Source: Herbiconiux sp. L3-i23 | Lineage (GTDB): Bacteria; Actinomycetota; Actinomycetes; Actinomycetales; Microbacteriaceae | DNA: 64,000 bases | Assembly: GCF_023734115.1 (NCBI RefSeq) | Contig: NZ_AP025737.1 | Coordinates: forward strand, 1,798,001 to 1,862,000 | Direction of reading: 5' to 3' | Shown here: piece by piece, positions 8,440 through 45,383 of the stretch | How the letters are laid out: each line of letters starts with the position of its first letter | How positions within the stretch are numbered: the stretch's first letter is position 1 | Position numbers and translations under genes: made by a program | Notes under the pieces: generated by a model | The model's database searches: none | The model's input: only the letters and a program-made list of their open reading frames with translations | Told to the model about the DNA's origin: nothing

Positions 8440-9039
8440 ATGACCTCGTCCTCGCTCACCCTCGCCGCCGACGCGGCCCTCGTCGTCATCGACTTGCAAC
8501 GAGGTTTCGACGACTCGACGTTCTGGGGGCGACGCAACAACCCCGCCGCCGAAGGCAATGTGTCGCGCCTCGTGCGCGCTTGGGCCTCGACCGGCCGGCC
8601 GCTCGTCATCGTCCGCCACGAGTCGGCTAATCCGAATAGCCCGCTGTCACCCAGCGGGGCCGGGGGCGACCTCAAGCCCGAGGTCGCCGACGCGTCGGCC
8701 GACCTGCACATCACCAAGACGGTCAACTCGGCGTTCTACGGCACTCCCGATCTGCACGCCTGGCTCACGGAGCGGGGTATCGGTCAGGTGGTGCTCGCCG
8801 GCATCCAGACCAACATGTGCAACGAGACCACCGCGCGCATGGCCGGCAACCTCGGCCACGACGTCCTGTTCGTGCTCGACGCGATGCATACCTTCGACCT
8901 CGAAGGCCCCGACGGCTCGGTGATGAGCGCCGACGAGCTGACCCGCGCGACCGCGACCTCCCTCCACGGCGGCGGCTTCGCCCGAGTCGTCGCCACCGAC
9001 GACGTACTGCAGGCCGCCGGAGTTCCGGTCGTCGAGTAG
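8440..9039 (+). CDS. Isochorismatase-family cysteine hydrolase
   Basis: A 199-residue cytosolic hydrolase of the isochorismatase/nicotinamidase fold. The catalytic triad is visible: Asp18 in VVIDLQRGF, Lys93 in ITKTVNSAF and Cys127 in GIQTNMCNETTARMA, after the expected cis-peptide region. Substrate is not predictable; amide or ureido compounds are usual. ATG 8440 starts at the family's N-terminus; CAGAGT (8427-8432), 7 nt upstream, may be a -10 box. The last residues VVE and the TAG stop are encoded by the repeat element that begins at 9025. Confidence 0.92.
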   Translation: MTSSSLTLAADAALVVIDLQRGFDDSTFWGRRNNPAAEGNVSRLVRAWASTGRPLVIVRHESANPNSPLSPSGAGGDLKPEVADASADLHITKTVNSAFYGTPDLHAWLTERGIGQVVLAGIQTNMCNETTARMAGNLGHDVLFVLDAMHTFDLEGPDGSVMSADELTRATATSLHGGGFARVVATDDVLQAAGVPVVE

Positions 9040-44011: not shown

Positions 44012-44899
44012 ATGACCGAAGTACGCGCCGAGATCCGCGAGTTCCTCAGCTCCCGCCGCGCCCGCATCACCCCCGAGATGGCGGGACTGCCGGCCTACGG
44101 CGGCAACCGTCGCGTCGCCGGTCTGCGTCGCGAAGAGGTCGCGATGCTCGCCGGAGTGTCGGTCGACTACTACGTGCGGCTCGAGCGCGGCGACCTCGCG
44201 GGAGCATCCGAAAGCGTGCTCGACTCGATCGCGTCGACGCTGAAGCTCGACGACGCCGAGCGGGTCTACCTCTTCGACCTCGCCCGCGCCGCCGGCCCGT
44301 CGAGGCGAGCGCCGAGCAAGCCGAAGGCGTCGGTGCGCCCCGCAGTGCAGCAGGTGCTCGACGCCATCGCCGACGCACCCGCCTGGGTTCGCAACGGCCG
44401 GCACGACATCATCGCGGCGAACCGGATGGGTCGCGCCCTCTACTCCCCCGTCTTCGACGACCCGCGCCGCCCGGTGAACACCACCCGCTTCGCTTACCTC
44501 AACCCCGAGGCCAAGACCTTCTGGCGCGACTACGACCAGATCACCCACGACGCGGCGTCGATGCTGCGCCTCGAAGCGGGACGCAACCCGCACGACCCCG
44601 ACATCATCACGCTCGTGGGCGAGCTGTCGACGCAGAGCGAACTGTTCCGTCAGCGCTGGGCGTCGCGGGACGTCATGTTCCACCGCAGCGGCACGAAGCG
44701 TCTGCACCACCCGGTGGTCGGCGACCTCGATCTCGACTACGAGTCGATGGAGCTGCCGAGCGAACCGGGCCTGGTGCTGAACGTCTACACCGCCCGGGCC
44801 GGCTCGCCGTCCGCGGACGGACTGAAGCTCCTCGCCTCCTGGGCGGCGACGCAAGAGGAGGCGTTCGCACGCCAGGAGGCGGAGAGCCGCGGGCTTTAG
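44012..44899 (+). CDS. MmyB-type helix-turn-helix regulator
   Basis: 295 residues. An N-terminal XRE helix-turn-helix (about 5-80: RRVAGLRREEVAMLAGVSVD, YYVRLERGDL) and a PAS-like MmyB ligand domain (about 110-275: DIIAANRMGRALYSPVFDDP, HHPVVGDLDLDYESMELP). Such regulators often sit by redox or detoxification genes; the minus-strand cupin-MFS-ADH operon and DUF2255 gene are likely targets. Leaderless start with TACCCT 6 nt upstream. Its TAG stop touches the first copy of a 14-bp direct repeat (44899-44912). Confidence 0.92.
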   Translation: MTEVRAEIREFLSSRRARITPEMAGLPAYGGNRRVAGLRREEVAMLAGVSVDYYVRLERGDLAGASESVLDSIASTLKLDDAERVYLFDLARAAGPSRRAPSKPKASVRPAVQQVLDAIADAPAWVRNGRHDIIAANRMGRALYSPVFDDPRRPVNTTRFAYLNPEAKTFWRDYDQITHDAASMLRLEAGRNPHDPDIITLVGELSTQSELFRQRWASRDVMFHRSGTKRLHHPVVGDLDLDYESMELPSEPGLVLNVYTARAGSPSADGLKLLASWAATQEEAFARQEAESRGL

Positions 44900-44992
44900 C
44901 TCGGGTACTCCGGCCGTTGAGCGAAGCGATACGAAGGTTGATCGAACAGCCTCCGTATCGCTTCGCTCAACGGGCGGCGCTCGGGTACTCCG
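44899..44992. repeat. Short family A element flanked by a 14-bp direct repeat
   Basis: A 66-bp element (44913-44978) with perfect 19-bp arms CGTTGAGCGAAGCGATACG (44915-44933) and its complement (44954-44972). It is flanked by GCTCGGGTACTCCG at 44899-44912 and 44979-44992. The right copy codes the end of the cupin; the element itself gives the cupin's last three residues and TGA stop. Between convergent genes it can also act as a two-way terminator. Confidence 0.92.
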
Positions 44993-45383
44993 CGTCGGAG
45001 ACCTTCTCGCCCCACGTCGTCTCCGGCTCGCCCGTCTCGGGTGCGGGCGCCTCCCAGAGCGCGAGGTGGCACATGAACTGGTCGGCGGTCGCGCCGTGCC
45101 AGTGCCACTCACCGGCGGGAGTGTGCACGGTATCGCCGGGATGCATCTCGATCAGCTCGCCTCCGCGACTCTGCACGTATCCGACGCCTTCGGTGACGTG
45201 CAGCGTCTGCCCGACCGCGTGCTTGTGCCAGGCGGTGCGCGCCCCGGGGGTGAACCGCACGAGGTTCAGTCGTGCCCGCGAGGGCTCATCGCCGCTGTAG
45301 TAGGCGTTGAAATAGACGTCGCCGCTGAACCACTCGGCCGGCCCTTTCACCGTGGGGGTCTTCGTCTGGATAGTGGTGCTCAT
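44967..45383 (-). CDS. Cupin-domain protein
   Basis: 138 residues, a single cupin barrel. Metal-site residues: GARTAWHKHAVGQTLHVTEG (His, His and a later Glu position) and GDTVHTPAGEWHWHGA. Small cupins of this type act as isomerases, lyases or dioxygenases, often beside regulators. It is the third gene of the ADH-MFS-cupin operon, 39 bases after the MFS gene. The C-terminus EYPSAAR and its stop come from the inserted repeat; removing the repeat would give EYPS and TAA. Confidence 0.88.
   Translation of the reverse strand: MSTTIQTKTPTVKGPAEWFSGDVYFNAYYSGDEPSRARLNLVRFTPGARTAWHKHAVGQTLHVTEGVGYVQSRGGELIEMHPGDTVHTPAGEWHWHGATADQFMCHLALWEAPAPETGEPETTWGEKVSDAEYPSAAR

Follow-up and report, generated by a model that had tools for sequence, protein, structure and literature searches.

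A REP-like hairpin flanked by a short direct repeat supplies the stop codon of a cupin gene in Herbiconiux sp. L3-i23

Introduction

In the window analysed here, a 64-kb stretch of the Herbiconiux sp. L3-i23 genome, a hairpin lies between two convergent genes, which encode an MmyB-like regulator on the forward strand and a cupin on the reverse strand, and is flanked by a 14-base duplication (Table 1). The best reading of this locus, and a probable one, is the insertion of a non-coding REP-like doublet together with a duplication of 11-14 bp; both the direction of the event (insertion, rather than a later copying of the 14-mer) and the mechanism of joining are what we infer. This reading is supported because the repeat is exact and flush with the element, and because the joined flanks yield a clean stop codon at the length usual among relatives of the cupin.

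In the proposed mechanism, a genus-specific doublet of two inverted 28-nt units (68 bp) would have entered at the overlapping stop codons of the convergent genes, and this single event would have left 11-14 bp of the cupin 3′ end on both sides. With the loss of the cupin TAA, three codons (GCC GCC CGT) would be read into the element as far as its built-in TGA, changing the C-terminus from EYPS to EYPSAAR. The duplication would most likely be a by-product of joining, either through a filled-in staggered break or through a replication template switch to another copy and back, and not the mark of a transposase for which target duplication is the rule.

Table 1. Features at the junction of the MmyB-like and cupin genes (positions in the window)
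Feature	Position	Strand	Remarks
MmyB-like regulator (HTH_31 + MLTR_LBD)	44012..44899	+	stop TAG, then 10 nt to element
Four-base ORF overlap, reconstructed empty site	44896..44899	.	cupin TAA 44896-44898, mmyB TAG 44897-44899
Left direct-repeat copy GCTCGGGTACTCCG	44899..44912	+	first G is final base of MmyB TAG; terminal CCG equally assignable to element start
REP-doublet (REPIN-like) hairpin	44910..44977	.	two family A units, head-outward, unique spacer between
Family A unit 1 (CCGGCCGTTGAGCGAAGCGATACGAAGG)	44910..44937	+	
Family A unit 2 (CCGCCCGTTGAGCGAAGCGATACGGAGG)	44950..44977	-	holds TGA now ending cupin
Cupin stop codon TGA	44967..44969	-	inside family A unit 2
Cupin_2 protein, 138 aa, C-terminus EYPSAAR	44967..45383	-	
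Right direct-repeat copy GCTCGGGTACTCCG	44979..44992	+	minus strand codes (E)YPS of cupin; presumed original

The hairpin and its repeat family

An earlier sequence-only reading had described a 14-bp direct repeat on both sides of a 66-bp hairpin, with the cupin ending in EYPS followed by AAR and a TGA from the element. Both points are confirmed: the two copies of the 14-mer are the only exact ones in the window, the 66 bp between them (44913-44978) represent the arm pair of a repeat, and the TGA lies in the second unit. The 68-nt stretch spanning the doublet folds at -54.9 kcal/mol (z = -12 against shuffled sequences), and its ends are formed by 34-nt inverted arms that are 88% complementary, so that terminal inverted repeats are present.

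This near-perfect hairpin is made of two copies of a 28-nt REP-like unit, designated family A, with the consensus CCGC[CT]CGTTGAGCGNAGCGATACGNAGG. Its core, CGTTGAGCGAAGCGATACGAAGG, has at least 118 half-copies in the 3.18-Mb genome when up to 2 mismatches are allowed, whereas the reversed control pattern gave 0 matches in the same genome at the same tolerance. In the regions fetched around copies there are 113 copies of the family (21 head-outward doublets and 92 single units), none within a called gene. Many single units are enclosed by the arms of two further palindromic repeats (CTACTCGACGACCGG..CCGGTCGTCGAGTA and CCTCCTCAATGACCAG..CTGGTCGCTGAGGAGG), with which they form BIME-like mosaic arrays with a period near 200 bp. 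Since family A occurs in 3 of the 9 genomes of the genus, and 150 genomes of Microbacteriaceae gave no occurrence beyond the genus, it is regarded as lineage-specific. No match above the gathering score was returned by Rfam, where only sub-threshold microRNA-precursor matches appeared, and a literature search on these repeats in Microbacteriaceae gave nothing pertinent. The hairpin has no U-tract, and no site resembling an intrinsic terminator was found on either strand.

At position 10 of the unit, both arms carry the same base in only 6 of 19 doublets and differ in the other 13, and pairing of the hairpin is thus not maintained at this position. Units of the family may exchange between copies. 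A donor for the doublet described here was sought among the other copies: none shares its spacer, and the closest full-length match elsewhere is 88%. The earlier proposal that the element had been caught in the act therefore receives no support from the spacer, nor from the genomes examined, none of which offers an empty site or has a cupin-MmyB pair with alignable flanks.

The direct repeat and the reconstructed empty site

When the hairpin and one 14-mer (80 bp) are removed in silico, a 135-aa cupin ending in EYPS and TAA is obtained, and the sequence expected of a single-copy empty site is TTTAGCTCGGGTACTCCGCG. The clean stop thus agrees with what had been proposed, whereas the overlap of three bases has to be corrected, as the two stop codons share two bases in the joined flanks and the open reading frames overlap by four. 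The duplication is given as 11-14 bp because the units begin with CCGC[CT], so that the last CCG of the left 14-mer may belong either to the target or to the element.

The repeat could in principle be an unrelated short one that happens to flank the hairpin, given the high GC content of the window, the frequency of short repeats, and the finding that random sites gave a 14-bp flank match in 7 of 20000 trials (a figure that includes real repeats). A flush exact match at any of the 113 copies is nevertheless expected at only about 3e-4 for 14 bp, or about 0.01 for 11 bp (the length that applies should the terminal CCG be part of the element), which makes coincidence highly improbable.

It is also quite unlikely that the hairpin and the present cupin end existed beforehand and that the 14-mer was copied later from right to left by slippage or template switching. 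Hairpins promote slippage, and two relatives lend this course some plausibility, one with a tandem duplication at the cupin 3′ end in the absence of a hairpin (L105) and one with another hairpin in the same gap (L033). Later copying, however, gives no account of why the joined flanks should stop in frame right behind EYPS, at a codon that overlaps the MmyB stop; such an immediate in-frame stop would be an accident of roughly 5-8% by our estimate.

Target duplication and mobility across the family

The sequence-only reading had further suggested a search for direct repeats at other family A copies and for a transposase with matching ends. Flush repeats were searched for at all 113 copies, both exactly and with tolerance of mismatches, against controls with mismatched flanks, and a clear one was found at the present copy alone. 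Its mismatch-tolerant flush score is 14, compared with at most 6 for the other 20 doublets and a 99% control level of 7; the few high-scoring single units reflect neighbouring repeats or low-complexity sequence, and the longest common flank stretches at other copies are at background level. Target duplication as a family-wide habit is accordingly rejected, although insertion with a duplication remains the simplest reading of this particular locus. No Y1 transposase or RAYT (Y1_Tnp, PF01797) was detected in the genome itself or in 8 congeners, while control genomes gave matches, and the fetched regions showed no transposase gene enclosed by inverted family A units.

These results bear on the possibility that the element moves like a MITE, by means of a transposase that makes 11-14 bp target duplications, those at other copies having decayed or been lost when copies recombined with one another. 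The long inverted ends, the many copies, and the exact flush repeat at this copy are all compatible with such transposition, and there is a precedent in the YPAL/RU-2 elements of Yersinia, where target duplications of 3-26 bp coincide with or adjoin sites of dyad symmetry (PMC2229807); the 14-mer described here is itself quasi-palindromic (CGGGTAC-T-CCG). The flush scores of the other doublets and the lack of a Y1 transposase in the genome and genus nonetheless render it unlikely, as does the finding that only a DUF222/HNH gene lies between inverted units in the fetched regions. A duplicating transposase would possibly be an enzyme that has since been lost or that was not recognised. A one-off duplication at joining is favoured because only 1 of 113 copies has the repeat, the genome and genus have no Y1 transposase, and the regions fetched gave no transposase gene lying between inverted units.

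The gene flanked by two inverted family A units encodes a DUF222/HNH endonuclease (L070:1893-3574). The genome has 13 DUF222 genes, and 10 of the 13 loci hold some repeat unit, compared with 53% of random windows of the same size; with no clear enrichment near repeats, DUF222/HNH genes are not convincing as mobilisers, and no other mobiliser emerged.

Cupin relatives and the junction with the MmyB-like gene

Among 35 cupin rows with at least 70% identity, a set that includes the window itself and some genomes twice, 25 extend 0-3 residues beyond the conserved EYP, with a mode of 2. The reconstructed EYPS fits, and the present EYPSAAR is longish yet not beyond what relatives show; tails of four residues occur without the element in L100, L129, and L133. 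Relatives ending in EYPSAAR without the element had been named as a finding that would refute an insertion; they were looked for, and this C-terminus was found in none of the cupin relatives compared.

The convergent pair is retained in many relatives, and the gap between its genes ranges from -29 to more than 2000 bp, at times containing other sequence, including other hairpins, so that the ancestral gap cannot be deduced from them. In the same genus, a different neighbour lies downstream of the MmyB ortholog (L221). Because the gaps vary and the neighbour in the congener differs, the clean join serves as indirect evidence for the direction of the event.

Several junctions have features of their own. 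The cupin of L105 (G136) bears a local tandem duplication (CGGGTCTACTTCATCGGGTCTACTTCGT) at its 3′ end, an independent event at the same place in a junction that lacks a hairpin, and in L033 an unrelated hairpin (GATCAGCTCGGTCGCGG..CCGCGACCGAGCTGATC) is located at the end of the MmyB gene. The cupin of L053 (G006, same genus) matches over its first 61-63 residues only and continues into unrelated sequence, apparently as a truncated gene.

Placement at gene ends and supplied stop codons

Family A has a strong bias towards gene 3′ ends. Intergenic regions with family A comprise 25 convergent, 29 co-directional, and 3 divergent cases, compared with 7, 54, and 30, respectively, among those of at least 60 bp without it; genes were called by a simple codon-usage caller of our own, which is approximate, and the sample comprises the window together with regions selected around copies. 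Stop codons near a unit either coincide exactly with its TGA, which is located in the outward head (CC GCC CGT TGA), or precede it by a few bases, usually 2-17 nt. In the fetched regions, at least seven unrelated genes stop at this same TGA, with C-termini ending in -AR or -VR; besides the cupin, they encode a ROK protein, a TetR regulator, an FHA protein, a glycolipid-binding-like protein, an FGGY kinase, and a membrane-like protein without a Pfam match. Since at least seven genes use the TGA of the unit, the moved stop codon is not peculiar to the cupin locus, whereas the duplication is, and moving a stop codon is a more general effect of family A than duplication. For two other genes stopping in a unit, relatives are mostly less than 55-60% identical, and their ends are too variable to place the original stop.

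A comparable arrangement involving another palindromic repeat (CCGGTCGTCGAGTAG) occurs at 9026-9039 of the window, where the repeat appears to give a TAG stop to a gene ending at about 9039.

A broader generalisation, which we consider improbable, would be that a genus-specific palindrome without a RAYT spreads by targeting gene ends, its own in-frame stop making insertion harmless, with at least one target duplication on entry.

Comparison with known systems

Like REPINs, family A consists of two inverted short units with a variable spacer, measures less than 100 bp, forms hairpins, and is extragenic and dispersed both as doublets and as singles (PMC3116915). Unlike REPINs, it has no RAYT in the genome or genus and no GTAG head, which is absent from the unit consensus read on both strands; many of its singles are bracketed by the arms of two further palindromic repeats, and its own arms show no covariation at position 10. 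Because the GTAG head and RAYT are missing, family A is best placed as a lineage-specific family of the REP/BIME/REPIN kind outside the GTAG class.

With the REP/BIME sequences of E. coli, family A shares mosaic arrays and many copies within about 15 nt past a stop codon (PMC12306157), although the sequences are unrelated and the outward head of family A carries a stop codon used by several genes. E. coli REPs within about 15 nt after the stop codon are reported to stall ribosomes (PMC12306157). The hairpin described here stands where both transcripts reach their 3′ end, 10 nt past the MmyB stop and over the cupin stop, which by analogy matches the ribosome-stalling position in E. coli (PMC12306157) and is where REP elements reportedly affect translation and mRNA 3′ ends; on this comparison we infer that it may influence the expression of the two genes.

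Among repeats whose duplications vary in size, the YPAL/RU-2 elements of Yersinia (PMC2229807) come closest as a precedent. They resemble family A in being repeated, intergenic, and not A+T-rich, and in having such duplications at or next to dyad symmetry, but they are about 168 bp long with internal inverted repeats, are unrelated in sequence, and have duplications as a family property, in contrast to the single case in family A.

Significance

The locus illustrates well how the ends of genes are reshaped by ordinary repeats, although the duplication is not general to the repeat. It belongs to a concrete and countable case of protein ends being redrawn by a bacterial repeat, in which one genome has at least seven unrelated proteins that end in -AR or -VR because the same unit supplies their stop. 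Should an empty site be found, the locus would also reveal at single-base resolution how a REP-like element for which no transposase is known gets into DNA.
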